DNA of 33,783 bases. Source: Oligoflexaceae bacterium. GTDB lineage: Bacteria > Bdellovibrionota_B > Oligoflexia > Oligoflexales > Oligoflexaceae. The position numbers and the translations under genes were made by a program. Under the pieces are notes generated by a model. That model was not told where the DNA came from, did not search any database, and was given only the letters and a program-made list of their open reading frames with translations. The DNA lies in assembly GCA_947454545.1 (NCBI GenBank), contig CANGNB010000005.1, positions 1-33,783 on the forward strand, in the 5' to 3' direction. The first letter of the stretch is position 1. Each line of letters opens with the position of its first letter. Below, one piece after another: positions 1-33,783 of the stretch.

Positions 1-31
1 GTCCCCCGACGAATAAGAAGGATGGAGAGCA

Positions 32-2002
32 ATGACAAAATCTTCGCAACACGACAATGGCTTCGCTGGCTTTTTAAAGGATCGCTTGAAAAACTCACGG
101 GTCTTAACCGAGATTTTCGAGAAAAACAAACCTAATATTTCCACTCTCATGCGCGTCGCCAGCGGTCGCGAATTTCAGTACATCAATCGTCTGAAGGGCG
201 AAGTCAAATCGCTTCGTTCGGAAATCGAACAGCTCAAGGCAGCCATCAAACAGGTTCCTGTCGATGGCGACAAGCCCTACGAACCTTTGAATCGAGATTT
301 TAAGACTATCCCGAAACAACCTTGGGAACGCTTCTATGACGCCGAAGTGTTACGACACTATGCTCCCCCCACAGGGACTATAGTCGATAACTTTAGGGAA
401 ACGGTCGATAAATTTCCTGGTAAAGACTTCACTCTCTTTCAAGGCGCAACGATCGATTATCGAACCGCTGATCGCTACACAGATGCCATCGCAGCTGCCC
501 TGCAAGAACGAGGTGTTCGCAAGGGTGATCGCGTCGCCATCCAATTGCCCAACATACCCCAAGTAGTCTTGGCTTATTATGGAGTCATGAAAGCGGGCGG
601 CATCGTTGTCTTCGTCAGCCCACTCTACACTGAAGAAGAAATCCAGCACCAAATCAATGATGCTAAGCCTGTCGTCTATATCACTCTTGATATCATCTAT
701 GACAAGCGCATCCGCAAAATACGTTCGAAACTGCCCTCCGTTCGCAACGTGCTTTTGGCTGATATTAAGAGCTTTTTGCCTGCTCATCTGCGCCAGCTCT
801 ATCCTATTAAGGCCAAGAAAACCGGCATGCTGGCCGAAATTCGTAAAGACGACCCTGTCGAGTCTCTCGATCAGCTGATCGATCAGACGAATCCTGAAGA
901 TTATAAGCCCGTTACCGTTACCTTCGAGGACATCGCCGTACTTCAGTACACAGGCGGTACCACAGGTCGTTCAAAAGGCGCTATCCTCACCCACAGCAAT
1001 CTTGCAAACAACATCAGCCAGCTCCAAGCCCTGCAGTATTCCTGTCAGCCTGGTGAAGAATCTATCCTCACAGCTGTCCCCATCTTCCACGTTCTTGGTA
1101 TGACCGTCTGTATGAATTTTGGTGTTAAAATCGGTGCTTGTCTCATCATGATACCCAAGTTCGATATCGATCTGATCGTCAAAGCGATTACGCGCTATCA
1201 GCCGACCTTCTTCCCCGGTGTACCAACGATGTTTGTTGCTTTCAACAATTACCCTGGCATCACTGAACTCGATGTCAGTTCGATTAAGTCTTGCTTCAGC
1301 GGAAGCGCTCCCCTGCCTGAAGAAGTTATGCGCCGCTTCGAACAGCTCACAGGTTCAAAAATCGTCGAAGGCTATGGCCTTTCTGAAACCTCACCTGTCA
1401 CTCATGTGAACCCCCTCTATGGCAAGCGTAAGCTTAATTCCATTGGTATCCCCATCCCAGGCACAGAAGCCAAAGTCTGCGATATGGAAACAGGCAAAGA
1501 GTGTCCTCCCAACACTCCTGGCGAGCTCTTGATTCGTGGACCTCAGGTTATGCGTGGCTACTGGAACATGACGGAAGAAACCGATCGCGTTCTGAAAGAT
1601 GGCTGGCTCCGCACGGGCGATGTGGCTCAGATTGATGATGATGGTTACTTTGCGATTGTCGATCGCATCAAAGACATGATCATCGCCGGGGGCTTCAACA
1701 TTTATCCTCGTGAGATCGACGAAGTCCTCTTTACTCACCCATCTATAGCTGAAGCGGTATCCGTAGGTATCCCAGACGCCTATCGCGGCGAAACAGTGAA
1801 GGCCTTTATCGTCCTCAAAGAAGGCAAAAGCCTCAGCGACGAGGATGTGAAAAACTTCTGCCGTCAGCATCTCGCGGCCTTTAAGGTGCCGACTCAGGTC
1901 GAATTCCGACCTGAACTGCCCAAAAATATGGTCGGGAAAATTCTGCGGAAAGTTCTTCGTGATGAAGAGATTGCCAAAGCAAATATGAAAAAAGCGAGCT
2001 AA
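32..2002 (+). CDS. fadD: Long-chain-fatty-acid--CoA ligase (AMP-dependent acyl-CoA synthetase)
   Basis: 656-aa ORF with AMP-binding motif YTGGTTGRSKGA, GYGLSETSP and C-terminal DRIKDMIIAGGFNIYPREIDEVL. Confidence 0.93.
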   Translation: MTKSSQHDNGFAGFLKDRLKNSRVLTEIFEKNKPNISTLMRVASGREFQYINRLKGEVKSLRSEIEQLKAAIKQVPVDGDKPYEPLNRDFKTIPKQPWERFYDAEVLRHYAPPTGTIVDNFRETVDKFPGKDFTLFQGATIDYRTADRYTDAIAAALQERGVRKGDRVAIQLPNIPQVVLAYYGVMKAGGIVVFVSPLYTEEEIQHQINDAKPVVYITLDIIYDKRIRKIRSKLPSVRNVLLADIKSFLPAHLRQLYPIKAKKTGMLAEIRKDDPVESLDQLIDQTNPEDYKPVTVTFEDIAVLQYTGGTTGRSKGAILTHSNLANNISQLQALQYSCQPGEESILTAVPIFHVLGMTVCMNFGVKIGACLIMIPKFDIDLIVKAITRYQPTFFPGVPTMFVAFNNYPGITELDVSSIKSCFSGSAPLPEEVMRRFEQLTGSKIVEGYGLSETSPVTHVNPLYGKRKLNSIGIPIPGTEAKVCDMETGKECPPNTPGELLIRGPQVMRGYWNMTEETDRVLKDGWLRTGDVAQIDDDGYFAIVDRIKDMIIAGGFNIYPREIDEVLFTHPSIAEAVSVGIPDAYRGETVKAFIVLKEGKSLSDEDVKNFCRQHLAAFKVPTQVEFRPELPKNMVGKILRKVLRDEEIAKANMKKAS

Positions 2003-28176: not shown

Positions 28177-30132
28177 TCAAGCCGCAAGGACATGATCGCG
28201 TGGAATAAAGACTTCCAGTACCCAATCAGCAAAACCATTCGCGTGGACTTTTTCCAACCGAAGTTCAACGCGGCCACCGATCGATAGTATGCTCTCTCGC
28301 ACAGCATCCATGCCCACGCCCCTTCCCGAAACCTGCGTGAGGGTGGCAGCCGTACTAAATCCTGGCAAAAAGATCGCATTGGCTATCGTTTTTGGATCAT
28401 TCACTTCAGGCGAGAGCAATCCGAGATTAACCGCTTTATCCTTGATGCGATTGAGGTTCAAACCTCTGCCATCATCTCCGATCGAGACCATCCAGTGATC
28501 CCCTTCAGGTTTGGAAATAAAGGCGATCGAGCCGATTTCATCTTTGCCTGAAGCAACTCGCTCCTGCGCATTTTCAAGACCATGATCCAAAGCATTTCGT
28601 AAGACGTGGACCAGCATTTTTTCAAAGACTGCCTCAGCTCTTTCCGTAAGACGAACATCTTCACCTGCACGCAGGAGGCGTGGAGAAGGTTTACCCAGAT
28701 CTGCAGCAATCTTTTTCACATCCTCCTCGCAACCTTCGACCAAATTAAAGAGAGAGGGGAGAAGGCTAAGAAGGAAAGCTCTTTCTTTGCCTTCTTTCAA
28801 AGCGCGATTGATATCGTCGGCTTTTTGTTTGCTGGAATCGCCGCGGAAGCGTTCGTTTACGATGATATCGATACTTTTGAGAATGGCGATAGCTTTTTGG
28901 ATATGGGTCAGAGCCTTTTGCTTGTCTTCTCGGTTCACATTTTCTTCGGCTTCATGGATCGCTGTTGCTAGGGTCATAAAGCCGAGAGTTCTTGCAGCAC
29001 CTTTACCTGTGTGCAGGTCGATATAGGCATCGCGTTTATTGGCGATGAGATCACCTTCCACCTTGTTCAAGGCATCATTCAGATAGTGAAAGCAGGCTTT
29101 GGTGAAAGAGAGGAGCTTTTGAGGATGCGTTTTATGGACTGTGAGAATGAGCTGATCGGTTTCAGCTCGTTCTTGGAGGCGAGAAATCTCTTCGATATCG
29201 ACGGCTTCAAGCTGAAGGCGCGAGACAACACCACCCTCGACGATGGGACTCCAGGTCACATTGTGCAGCTTACCCTGAAAGCGAGTTTGATGAGGAAGGA
29301 GTGCACCATTCATTTCATAATTGAGTTCATCCTCGTCCAATATGGCTTCGACGGCTGACAGCAAACTCGCCCGCTGGTCTTCATGAAACATCGTACAGAT
29401 ATCGTGTGCGTTCGACGCCGAAGCATTCAACTCTCGAAAAGCGGCTGAAGCAGCAATGATCGAATCCATTGAAAAAATCACCACCAGGTTTGGTGTTGAT
29501 GACAGGATAGAACGAATGTTGTTGTTGGAGGCCTCGGCCTCTTTGCGGAGAGTTTCAGCACGATCTTTTTCCTGAAGAATAACCTGCTGGTATTCCCCAG
29601 CGTTCTTATCAAAGAGAAAGATGATAAAAAAGGTGAGACTGATGGCAAAGAGTTCAATGATCAAGGAATATCCCGCCAGATCTGTCTTGGGTTGAGTGAA
29701 GAAAAAGTAGAAAAGTATCCCAAGCTCGATCACGAGCAGGGCTTTCGCTTTCTTCACCCCAAACGAATACATAATCCCAGCAATAAAAAGTGGGAAGGTT
29801 GCGATAAATGCTGAGGCCAAATAACCTGTTTCCGCAACAACCGCATACATAATATAAACAGAAGTGAGTAGTCGAATCAGTGAACCTAAGGAGATCGGTT
29901 TCGCCTTATCTTTGAGCACTCCGTAGAGGGAGAAGATCGTTCCCAAAAAAGTCGCTGTGGCACCCAGAGCCGGGATCACAAAGAAGTTTTTTGAGCTCGC
30001 CACGCTTGAGAAAAAGTAAAGCGCTATGGCTGTTACTGCCTGGCCCAGAATCCCCAGCGATCCATTGAGCGCGATCGCATTAAATTCCTTTTGCTTTTCG
30101 GCACTTAGAGAAGCTTTCAGCGAGTTCAGCAT
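28177..30132 (-). CDS. Membrane-bound CheA-like sensor kinase: ~6 TM, PAS-like linker, Hpt, CheA-type HATPase
   Basis: Hydrophobic N-terminal segments; Hpt motif DLHTGKGAARTLG; HVLRNALDHGLE N-box; IGDDGRGLN; PGFSTAATLTQVSGRGVGMDAVRE. GAGGAGG RBS. Confidence 0.88.
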   Translation of the reverse strand: MLNSLKASLSAEKQKEFNAIALNGSLGILGQAVTAIALYFFSSVASSKNFFVIPALGATATFLGTIFSLYGVLKDKAKPISLGSLIRLLTSVYIMYAVVAETGYLASAFIATFPLFIAGIMYSFGVKKAKALLVIELGILFYFFFTQPKTDLAGYSLIIELFAISLTFFIIFLFDKNAGEYQQVILQEKDRAETLRKEAEASNNNIRSILSSTPNLVVIFSMDSIIAASAAFRELNASASNAHDICTMFHEDQRASLLSAVEAILDEDELNYEMNGALLPHQTRFQGKLHNVTWSPIVEGGVVSRLQLEAVDIEEISRLQERAETDQLILTVHKTHPQKLLSFTKACFHYLNDALNKVEGDLIANKRDAYIDLHTGKGAARTLGFMTLATAIHEAEENVNREDKQKALTHIQKAIAILKSIDIIVNERFRGDSSKQKADDINRALKEGKERAFLLSLLPSLFNLVEGCEEDVKKIAADLGKPSPRLLRAGEDVRLTERAEAVFEKMLVHVLRNALDHGLENAQERVASGKDEIGSIAFISKPEGDHWMVSIGDDGRGLNLNRIKDKAVNLGLLSPEVNDPKTIANAIFLPGFSTAATLTQVSGRGVGMDAVRESILSIGGRVELRLEKVHANGFADWVLEVFIPRDHVLAA

Positions 30133-30370
30133 GGATCCTCCTCAAAACACATCATGTATTCTCAAGTCTCGGCGCACAAAGCCAAGAACTGAGCAAGCCT
30201 TTGACAATCTTGGCGACAGCTGTCGAATTTGGCAAAACACCAGTCGACTTCCCGTCACCCAACGTATAAAAACTCCTTTCATTATATCCTTACTCAAGAT
30301 ATTTCTCAGCATATCGCCTTGGCCCAATTCATGTAAAAGCGAGAGCGTGGTTTCAGTCGTGGAGGTTGCT

Positions 30371-31036
30371 ATGTTTCCAGTGAAGTTTGTTTCTGTAGGG
30401 TTGAGTATTGCAAGTGCTCTAGCTCTGGGTTTTGCCTGCAGGAGTGATCAAAAACCAAGCGCGAGCTCGCAGGTTGCCAGTGAATTCAGCACCAACTCGG
30501 ATCTTTCCGTAAGATCGGGAGAACATTGCAATCAAGCTTTGATCCGCCTGGATCCACCCTCAATAGGTCCGGATGGAAGCACCATCCTCAGCTGGAACCT
30601 GCCGGGCTATCAATCGGTACGCAACGAACAGGGTCTGTTCTTTGAAGAGCGTGGCCCCAATGGCAGTATCATCATCCGGGGTGGTCCCAGCCGCGTTCTG
30701 CGCCTCTTGGCCAAACCCATCGGCAACGGTCCTGAGTCGATCTTTGAAATACCGCTTCGTGTGGAAGCCGTCGGGGGCGAACCTCGGATTCTGAGCTTTT
30801 ACAGCACCAAAGCTGTCGTCGGCGTCAACGAAGCCACTCAGCTGCGTTGGATCGTGAGTGGTTGCTCTTCGATCGAAGTCCGTGGTCCAGGTGGTTGGAC
30901 ACATGGGGCCCCTTGTCGCCCCTTTGAGGACAGCATAGGCGTTGCGATTCCTGAGACGGGGACCTATGTCCTCACTCTCAAAGATGCCTTCAACTCGCCA
31001 CTCGGAAGTCAGATCTATCGCCTCGAGGTGCGCTAA
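30371..31036 (+). CDS. Lipoprotein with Ig-like domain, hypothetical
   Basis: MFPVKFVSVGLSIASALALGFAC lipobox-type signal; ATG at 30371 preceded by GTGGAGG. The longer ORF from 30026 runs antisense over the kinase start. Confidence 0.75.
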   Translation: MFPVKFVSVGLSIASALALGFACRSDQKPSASSQVASEFSTNSDLSVRSGEHCNQALIRLDPPSIGPDGSTILSWNLPGYQSVRNEQGLFFEERGPNGSIIIRGGPSRVLRLLAKPIGNGPESIFEIPLRVEAVGGEPRILSFYSTKAVVGVNEATQLRWIVSGCSSIEVRGPGGWTHGAPCRPFEDSIGVAIPETGTYVLTLKDAFNSPLGSQIYRLEVR

Positions 31037-31073
31037 GCCTCTTTTCCTGAAGGCTCGGTAGCCAAAAATCAGT

Positions 31074-31095
31074 TCAGCCTGAGCAGTCAGGCTGA
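31074..31095. repeat. Perfect stem-loop after the lipoprotein gene
   Basis: TCAGCCTGA-GCAG-TCAGGCTGA, 9-bp arms and 4-nt loop; no T tract. Confidence 0.7.
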
Positions 31096-31232
31096 GAGCC
31101 TCCTATTTCCCCATAGTCTCGGACCTTTACACAGTTCTTATCCCCTTTTCTAGGATATGTGCGCCCACCGAGTTCAGCTCCTATCAGGGCACAAGCATTG
31201 GATATTTTGCAAAGCCTCCCAAATCATGTCAT

Positions 31233-31268
31233 TTAGACATTGCCTTTGTGACACAAATACGTTAGACA
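31233..31268. promoter_or_regulatory. Candidate operator upstream of the HTH regulator
   Basis: Perfect dyad TTTGTG-A-CACAAA (31245-31257) between direct repeats TTAGACA at 31233-31239 and 31262-31268. Confidence 0.4.
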
Positions 31269-31370
31269 GCAAAAGCCTAAAGTGTTAGGTCGAACTGCGT
31301 AGGCTGATAAGAGTCCTTAGGACGTTCGCATACGCACGAGAACCTTGAGTAACTTCGTTGAGGTCAGACG

Positions 31371-32114
31371 ATGGGTGAGCTTCTCAAAGAACTACAGGAA
31401 CTGATTGAGGCATGGTTAGGTTCGCGCAAGTATGCGAATCTTTCGGTCCTGGCAAGGATTTCAGGAGTCTCTTACCCGACACTTCGCCGCATTGTCCAAG
31501 GCGAGATGACGCCAGCTCTGCAAACCGTCTTGCAACTCGCTCCGGTCCTCCAAGAGCAGTCTCAGGCCCAAAGCTTTGTTGCTAGACATTTTCCTGAAGT
31601 TGCCAAACTCTACCGACTCACCGATCGCCAGGGCTATGCTTTGCTCAATGCCAATGAAGTGTTTCAGTCGATGAGCAAAGAAGAGTTTCTGGTCTTCTCT
31701 ATGGCAGCACAGAAACGTGGCATCAGCCGCAATCGCCTCGCCCAGCGTTTAGGGGAAGGCGCCGAGGATGCTATCCAGCGTCTCTTGGATGCTGAACTTA
31801 TCATCGAACCTATTCCAGGACGCCTTCAAACCAAAGATGAAAACGTCTTGATCGCAGGCCTTGACAACACCCTTCATCGCATCAAACTTGCCGTCGATGC
31901 TTTTGATCGGCAACGCGAGCAGGAATATGGCAGCTACTACGGTCTGTTTAGCAATGGACTCAACGATGAAGGTATCAAAGCCGCTCATCGCGTCTTGCGT
32001 GAGGCCGAAAGTAAACTCATGTCCATTTTTCAAGATGAGGGTCTTCAGGGCCCCAAAATTCTTTATCATGCTATGATTTCAAGCTTTATAGATGCAAAAG
32101 GGGAAGTACCATGA
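31371..32114 (+). CDS. HTH (XRE-like) transcriptional regulator
   Basis: LSVLARISGVSYPTLRRIVQGEMTPALQTVLQLA helix-turn-helix; second winged-helix-like segment ISRNRLAQRLGEGAEDAIQRLLDAELI; helical C-terminus. Confidence 0.75.
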   Translation: MGELLKELQELIEAWLGSRKYANLSVLARISGVSYPTLRRIVQGEMTPALQTVLQLAPVLQEQSQAQSFVARHFPEVAKLYRLTDRQGYALLNANEVFQSMSKEEFLVFSMAAQKRGISRNRLAQRLGEGAEDAIQRLLDAELIIEPIPGRLQTKDENVLIAGLDNTLHRIKLAVDAFDRQREQEYGSYYGLFSNGLNDEGIKAAHRVLREAESKLMSIFQDEGLQGPKILYHAMISSFIDAKGEVP

Positions 32115-32434
32115 AACATTCCACGCTGAGCGGCATTGTACTCTTAAGCTTTCTTACACCCGTTCTTGCTTATGCAGGGATCGCTACCTCGGGAGGCGGG
32201 CCAGGACGATTGGTTGAAGTAACTCCCTCAGACAAAAGTGAAGTCGTCGTGAGCAAAGTTGAATTTCTACGGATTCAAAATCACTTGATCACCCAGGGCA
32301 GCGCGATTGTTCCCATAGAAACGGGAAGCGTTGGTGTTCAGGGGCAAGGCCAAGATCTCTTCACCGCCGAACCCATCGCCCGTCCTATCGTTCCAAGCCA
32401 TTCGGAAGTTTCGTTCGTCAAACCTCAGAACTGA
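32111..32434 (+). CDS. Small secreted protein, 107 aa, coupled to the HTH regulator
   Basis: ATGA overlap with the regulator stop; signal peptide MKHSTLSGIVLLSFLTPVLAYA; Gly-rich mature start GIATSGGGPG. Confidence 0.7.
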   Translation: MKHSTLSGIVLLSFLTPVLAYAGIATSGGGPGRLVEVTPSDKSEVVVSKVEFLRIQNHLITQGSAIVPIETGSVGVQGQGQDLFTAEPIARPIVPSHSEVSFVKPQN

Positions 32435-33081
32435 TCCTCAAGATCGCGCAGGGCTCCGCGAGATGACGTCTCGCGCCCCTTGTGCTGGGCTGCTTGACAG
32501 AAACCAAGTTCAGTTCCCTCTTCGAGCTCTTTGGCAAAGCAGTCATGACAGGCAGGAAGGTATTTTTCTTCAGCTCCAAGATCGACGGTCGGACCTGCTA
32601 GGCTGGGTCGGCCCTCAACGAGCTTGAGGTTAAAAATCCCCTTACGATTACAAAAAGCACAGGTTGTCTTCACTTCTTCGATAGCATCCGAAAGTTCCAT
32701 CAGCCGCTTCGATCCTTCGAACAGCTGGGCCCGAAAATCGGTCCGCAGTCCGTAGCAGATGACAGGAATCTGCAGCACACGCGTCACGCGCCGCAGCTGA
32801 TCGATAAAATCTGCGCTGAGAAATTGGGCTTCATCCACCAAAATACAGTGATAGCCCTCCAAAAGATCGAGATCGAGGACGGTATCAGCGTCTACAAGAA
32901 GATCTGCTTTTTGACTCAGACCGGCTCGCGAACGAATCACAGCCTCACCAAAGCGCGTATCTAAGCGCGGCTTCATCAGGAACACTTGCTTATCTTGCTG
33001 ACGGTAGGCATGCGCAACAGCCAAGAGGTTCAGAGTCTTCGCACTCCCGACCGCTCCGAACCGAAAATAAAGCTTGGCCAT
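32425..33081 (-). CDS. tdk: Thymidine kinase
   Basis: MAKLYFRFGAVGSAKTLNLL, CILVDEAQFL, VICYGLRTDF, Cys pairs CAFC/CHDC (structural zinc). Confidence 0.94.
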   Translation of the reverse strand: MAKLYFRFGAVGSAKTLNLLAVAHAYRQQDKQVFLMKPRLDTRFGEAVIRSRAGLSQKADLLVDADTVLDLDLLEGYHCILVDEAQFLSADFIDQLRRVTRVLQIPVICYGLRTDFRAQLFEGSKRLMELSDAIEEVKTTCAFCNRKGIFNLKLVEGRPSLAGPTVDLGAEEKYLPACHDCFAKELEEGTELGFCQAAQHKGRETSSRGALRDLEDQF

Positions 33082-33107: not shown

Positions 33108-33783
33108 TTAAGCGTTATCATCACCGCTTGCGCCACCAGCTCCCTGACCCTCTTTTTTGGGGCTGATAGGACTCAAGACCTTGATCTTGGGCCCGTCGGA
33201 AGTCTCAGGCTTGCCCTTAGCTTCGAGAGGTGGACGTGCCTGCACAGGTCGCGGCGCTTGGGGTGCCTGAGCTGTCTGGGCTCCCTGAGGGCCTTCTTCA
33301 CGACGGCCATCTTTATTGCGTTTGCCGCGATCACGGTCCCCACGATTGCGACCACGGTTTCGATCGCCACGGTTTCCTTCGGCTCCCGGCTCTTGGCGAG
33401 GGGAAGCAATCTGCTTACGCTCACCCTCCACCCGTTCCTGACGGTCACCGCGGTCTTGGCGTTCGTTTCCACGTTCGCCACCACGTTCACGCCTTGGCTC
33501 CCCGCGATCGGACCGTCCAGCACGCTGCTGATCACGCGATCCTCGACCTTCAGGCCTTGGCTGCTGAGAACCTCTCGGGGAAACGCTCGGGCGTGGACGC
33601 GAAGCCGCTGCGGGCTCATCACCTCGCTGCCGCTGAACTTCATCGCTATCATCCAAAGCTGCAATATCGCCATCGCCCATCAGTTGGTTCAGATCGAGAT
33701 CACTTCCCCAATCATCATCATCGCTCGCAGCCTGTCTTGCTTCGAGGACTTCCAGTTCCGAGATGGGTACCGATCGTTGCTCA
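33108..33783 (-). CDS. Disordered RGD/RNRG-rich C-terminal region of an unidentified protein; runs off the window
   Basis: Frame stays open from 33680 to the window edge (EQRSVPISELEVLEARQAASDDDDWGSDLDLNQL...); Arg/Gly/Asp-rich tail; 26 bp upstream of tdk. Confidence 0.6.
   Translation of the reverse strand, partial: EQRSVPISELEVLEARQAASDDDDWGSDLDLNQLMGDGDIAALDDSDEVQRQRGDEPAAASRPRPSVSPRGSQQPRPEGRGSRDQQRAGRSDRGEPRRERGGERGNERQDRGDRQERVEGERKQIASPRQEPGAEGNRGDRNRGRNRGDRDRGKRNKDGRREEGPQGAQTAQAPQAPRPVQARPPLEAKGKPETSDGPKIKVLSPISPKKEGQGAGGASGDDNA

Follow-up and report, generated by a model that had tools for sequence, protein, structure and literature searches.

In the RRNPP systems (PlcR-PapR, Rap-Phr, Rgg-SHP), the gene of a cytoplasmic HTH regulator adjoins that of a small protein exported by Sec, and many paralogous pairs occur. 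RRNPP receptors are TPR-repeat proteins of 250-500 aa (PMC10075063). Regulators of the TIGR02147/DUF4423 type (PF14394), found in Fibrobacter, Bdellovibrio and relatives, consist of an HTH, a winged helix and a C-terminal helix; the domain is of unknown function and is hugely multiplied in Oligoflexia, with 8 such regulators in the genome analysed here and up to 37 copies per genome in its relatives. At the hit locus of Bdellovibrio, a related lineage, Bd0108 is an exported protein of ~100 aa with a regulatory effect; its mature part starts with DE, and its partner Bd0109 is a cell-wall protein (PMC3818213).

The window, a 33,783-nt stretch of an Oligoflexaceae genome, carries a regulator gene followed by a gene for a small exported protein. 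A sequence-only reading had proposed that these could form an RRNPP-analogous pair in a Gram-negative bacterium. The layout and adjacency of the genes agreed with this proposal, but membership of the RRNPP class was rejected: no TPR was found in the regulator in the AlphaFold model, by Pfam or by Foldseek, which bore out the statement in the same reading that the system would not be a classical one. No RRNPP receptor was present among the Foldseek/PDB matches listed for the regulator. The regulator (247 aa) and the open frames of its paralogues (239-321 aa) lie around the lower end of the receptor range given above, and the partner (107 aa with its signal peptide; 46-222 aa in relatives, mostly >80 aa) around the upper end of the RRNPP propeptide range of 10-100 aa. 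The window pair differs from RRNPP systems in its lack of TPR, its longer partner and its Gram-negative host, and peptide sensing in it is putative.

The likeness to TIGR02147/DUF4423 extends from the domain order of the regulator to an exported protein downstream, often with an ATGA overlap, and to a Gly/Asn tag behind the signal peptide; the adjacent tagged protein was recognised here as a feature of that family and is not a published criterion for it. The partners of the window family differ in being small and soluble, with GGG-type tags and not VGNGGD or GTEVGN. Similarity to Bd0108 was considered but went no further than small size and export, and no coupled HTH regulator is described for Bd0108/Bd0109 (PMC3818213). 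The regulator/exported-protein pairing was not found described in the open literature searched (subscription journals lay outside its scope). The window pair does not stand alone: Oligoflexia contain many copies of this two-gene module.

Gene arrangement of the locus

Both open reading frames, including the ATGA in which the regulator ends and the partner begins, were confirmed as the sequence-only reading had described them (Table 1). The signal peptide and mature start that it had reported also stood, and comparison with orthologues placed the cleavage after residue 22. Since the thymidine kinase gene (PF00265, Pfam) 3' of the pair is convergent and an inverted repeat follows the upstream + strand gene, the regulator and its partner were taken as a two-gene unit.

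Table 1. Features of the module, in window positions or regulator residues
Feature	Position	Strand	Basis
Regulator ORF, 247 aa	31371..32114	+	ORF reading, Pfam, AlphaFold model, Foldseek
Cro/C1-type HTH of the regulator	residues ~2-60		
MarR-like winged helix of the regulator	residues ~103-155		
C-terminal long helix of the regulator	residues ~199-221		
Exported partner ORF, 107 aa	32111..32434	+	ORF reading; homologous to partners of the closest orthologues
ATGA, partner start overlapping regulator stop; putative translational coupling	32111..32114	+	Sequence; same overlap in homologous pairs
GGGGAA, Shine-Dalgarno-like, within the last codons of the regulator	32100..32105	+	Read from sequence
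Predicted Sec signal peptide, residues 1-22 (AYA^G)	32111..32176	+	Home-made heuristic and orthologue alignment
Gly-rich mature N-terminus GIATSGGGPGR, conserved element of the partners	32177..32209	+	Sequence comparison
TTTGTGACACAAA palindrome, candidate operator 5' of the regulator	31245..31257		No more than expected by chance across the whole region
9-bp inverted repeat, terminator-like, between upstream gene and promoter region	31074..31095		Sequence reading

The TTTGTGACACAAA palindrome was not conserved in the upstream regions of orthologues. A conserved operator was sought in these regions and none was found, the alignment being uninformative, and a search of positions 30900-32600 for riboswitches and known RNA elements gave no match. 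Two neighbouring genes were noted in passing. The + strand gene 5' of the module (window 30026-31036), which had no Pfam or NCBIfam match, encodes a lipoprotein-like N-terminus (ALGFACRSDQ) when read from an internal start. Positions 33108-33782 (- strand) encode the open-ended, Arg/Gly/Asp-rich, low-complexity C-terminal tail of a protein that runs off the window; no Pfam match was obtained for it.

Domain structure and family of the regulator

The N-terminal HTH of the regulator matched HTH_3 and HTH_26 above the Pfam cut-off. An AlphaFold2 model built from a 72-sequence alignment (pLDDT 89.8, pTM 0.69) showed, after this HTH, connecting helices and a winged helix, with a long helix at the C-terminus. 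The top PDB matches in Foldseek were MarR-type repressors and were weak (E 0.02, TM 0.25); membership of the MarR family was rejected, as its criterion is the winged-helix dimer fold alone and the regulator has an extra N-terminal Cro/C1 HTH.

In family scans the regulator had no match to TIGR02147 or PF14394. Among its relatives, TIGR02147 was matched by 2 of 72 (best E 1.4e-4) and DUF4423 by one of 11 (E 0.08). Profile-profile comparison with hhalign aligned the regulator family with DUF4423/TIGR02147 proteins of the same phylum over 224 columns (probability 97.4, E 9.7e-12), and the C-terminal part with the HTH removed was still matched (probability 95.5, E 1.6e-8). Since profile homology is present, yet the curated models miss the window protein, the regulator is, as judged from these profiles, a remote sister family of TIGR02147/DUF4423 and not a member. 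The window module represents a new sub-branch within a large class, so far apparently undescribed, in which a local regulator is paired with a tagged exported protein.

Co-conservation of regulator and exported partner

Loci were collected from 58 genomes of the phylum by a regulator-profile search, and closed, near-full-length regulators with >350 nt of downstream sequence were counted (n = 85). A partner was scored when an ORF of 40-260 aa lay -40 to +80 nt from the regulator and passed a strict home-made signal-peptide test. Such an ORF was found directly 3' of 70 of the 85 regulators, compared with 8 of 109 other genes from the same loci subjected to the same test (Fisher p = 2.5e-28); the 8 control positives were mostly poor candidates, and three partners missed by the test (L094, L107 and L120) were plain on reading. 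Regulator homologues lacking an adjacent secreted ORF, which the sequence-only reading had named as counting against a pair, were not the general case, and nearly all had one.

The claimed pair is real and co-conserved, but not every copy has the exact ATGA overlap. Of the 70 pairs, 25 overlapped by exactly 4 nt and a further 5 by 1 nt, so that 30 of the 85 regulators overlapped the following ORF. Because the three closest orthologues of the window pair have a gap of 30-40 nt and no overlap, translational coupling was considered a common but not a fixed trait.

Pairs were multiplied in a lineage-specific manner, with 5-15 per genome: five paralogues of the regulator were found in the window genome and up to 15 regulators in genomes of relatives. 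A narrower profile applied to named genomes retrieved seven loci, all from Oligoflexus/Oligoflexaceae or Proteobacteria MAGs; MAGs of Oligoflexus sp. and Oligoflexaceae were the nearest named relatives, in keeping with the origin of the window in Oligoflexaceae. There were also regulators without a partner. No exported ORF lies behind one paralogue in the window's own genome (L005, G000:C106), which is a natural orphan, and several regulators in two other families also lack one. In the opposite direction, a search with the profile of one partner class within the window's own family returned nine genes, of which eight adjoin a regulator and one (L257) does not. As a separate observation, tandem regulator-partner modules were present at L077 and L078, two in each of two genomes, which fits joint duplication of regulator and partner.

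The exported partner and its Gly-rich N-terminus

In the window partner a positively charged n-region precedes a hydrophobic core, and VLA/AYA offer cleavage sites. Its predicted mature start, AYA^GIATSGGGPGR, aligned with the AFA^GIIGVGG found in the closest relatives, and the mature part was 26-33% identical to the partners of the closest orthologues. No Pfam or NCBIfam family matched it, and the structure model (pLDDT 50) was not interpretable.

Across relatives the partners were diverse and fast-diverging, often with a common Gly-rich segment at the mature N-terminus. A hexamer with >=3 G within residues 15-48 was present in 44 of 73 partners, compared with 6.5 +/- 2.4 in shuffled sequences. 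In close orthologues identity was 87-97% for regulators and 42-76% for mature partners, and the segments GIIGVGG, GQHSGLGG and SGSNTV were invariant in the partners while their codons varied synonymously, which argues for selection on the peptide and not on the RNA. When all 76 pairs were taken together, the excess identity of the first ten mature residues was modest (0.46 versus 0.34), owing in part to rough cleavage calls and to one subclass with a later NGG motif. Loss of conservation or of signal-peptide cleavage in the small protein, which had also been named as evidence against a pair, was not seen in general; the predicted signal peptide and the Gly-rich N-terminus are kept.

Tagged proteins beside DUF4423 regulators

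About 20 of ~25 sampled DUF4423 regulators with enough downstream sequence had the gene of an exported protein or lipoprotein behind them, and ATGA overlaps were frequent. Many of these partners had a VGNGGD or (C)GTEVGN-type tag behind the signal peptide, and many were lipoproteins or proteins of 300-500 aa. DUF4423/TIGR02147 regulators at L147-L176, L198-L218 and L221-L242 systematically adjoin exported proteins or lipoproteins tagged with VGNGGD or GTE[VIT]GN, a pattern that may far exceed the window pair in extent.

Since this sample had started from the regulators, the phylum was then searched from the tag alone. With VGNGGD, 16 of 19 exported proteins (export of L200 being putative) adjoined a DUF4423 regulator: 13 were downstream on the same strand, two were divergent and one was followed by the regulator. 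With GTE[VIT]GN, all 17 lipoproteins with a readable start lay directly 3' of a DUF4423 regulator. Tag matches that were off-frame or in non-exported proteins (VGNGGD), or that were out-of-frame or in non-lipoproteins (GTE[VIT]GN), were never beside one (0/3 and 0/12, respectively). The VGNGGD proteins fell into at least four groups, related within groups and with no detectable similarity between them; as partners are partly homologous within a tag class, part of the tag conservation reflects descent.

Discussion

The comparisons established the gene order, the co-conservation of the two genes, the conserved tag and the near-exclusive link of the tag to this regulator superfamily. The last of these suggests that the tag matters to the circuit, possibly as the cue to which the regulator responds. 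The best explanation, to which a probability of roughly 45% was assigned, is a translationally coupled module whose operon is controlled by the regulator and in which the Gly-rich N-terminus links regulator and partner. Regulator and exported partner would be produced from one mRNA with coupled translation. It is likely that the regulator controls its own operon, including the gene of its partner, and it would do so by binding to its own promoter. The Gly-rich segment behind the signal peptide would be the functional link, in that the C-terminal region of the regulator would most likely bind the tag of the cytoplasmic, not-yet-exported precursor; expression of the operon would then follow export or demand, a direction of response that we infer. 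Against this explanation stand the lack of a conserved operator in the upstream regions, the regulators without a partner, the partner without a regulator, the share of tag conservation owed to descent and the modest excess identity over all pairs.

As the cytoplasm is the only place where a soluble regulator could communicate with a soluble exported partner, the signal would have to be either the unexported precursor or a returned fragment. Recognition of the precursor is favoured because the tag adjoins the signal peptide, because coupling keeps both products in step, and because large proteins and lipoproteins, as many DUF4423 partners are, would be unlikely sources of imported peptides.

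Nearly as likely as tag recognition is an ordinary local regulator, which would sense a small ligand or stress through its MarR-like domain and control the operon of its own envelope or secreted protein, receiving no feedback from the partner; the Gly-rich tag would then serve folding, processing or surface delivery of the partner. The best structural match, weak as it was, is to a MarR-like winged helix, two DUF4423 regulator genes point away from their target gene, the classical orientation for a local regulator, and partner bodies evolve faster than the C-domain of the regulator. A delivery tag would be expected on exported proteins without a regulator as well, yet only 3 of 36 tagged proteins lacked one, and the tag-first search weakened the case for a general sorting signal. 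An envelope protein under a dedicated regulator, the alternative that the sequence-only reading had itself offered, fits the data about as well as signalling does.

Signalling of the RRNPP kind, in which the exported protein is processed outside and a Gly-rich fragment is re-imported and binds the regulator for self- or density-sensing, was judged improbable. An adjacent Sec-exported small protein, the lineage-specific multiplication of pairs and the conservation of a short stretch at the start of the mature chain would all suit it. The regulator has no TPR, however, most partners exceed 80 aa and many in the DUF4423 family are lipoproteins or far larger, and the tag is N-terminal with no evident second cleavage site. 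A type II toxin-antitoxin (HigA/HipB) or bacteriocin-type pair, in which the small protein would be the toxin and the HTH protein a repressor resembling an antitoxin, was rejected as very improbable: the HTH part does resemble HigA/HipB-type domains, but an exported, coupled second gene is not a toxin-antitoxin layout, the regulator has an additional winged-helix domain, no antitoxin family scored above its cut-off (TIGR03070, 16 bits against 71.65) and the partner matched no family.

The extension of tag recognition to TIGR02147/DUF4423 and the sister family as a whole, with each regulator reading the Gly/Asn tag of its own partner as an export monitor or self-sensing circuit, is rather doubtful. 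If true, tag reading would be a mode of regulation not described before in Gram-negatives, in a superfamily with dozens of members per genome, and possibly a novel means by which a cell senses the proteins it exports. The systematic pairing with N-terminally tagged exported proteins offers TIGR02147/DUF4423 its first concrete, testable role and suggests that relatives of predatory bacteria have many surface or secreted proteins that have gone unrecognised.

One further observation concerns a VGNGGD exported protein without an adjacent regulator (L193/L218; G006:C86, ~29 kb). An IS200-like transposase ORF lies just upstream of its gene and may have separated the protein from a regulator.
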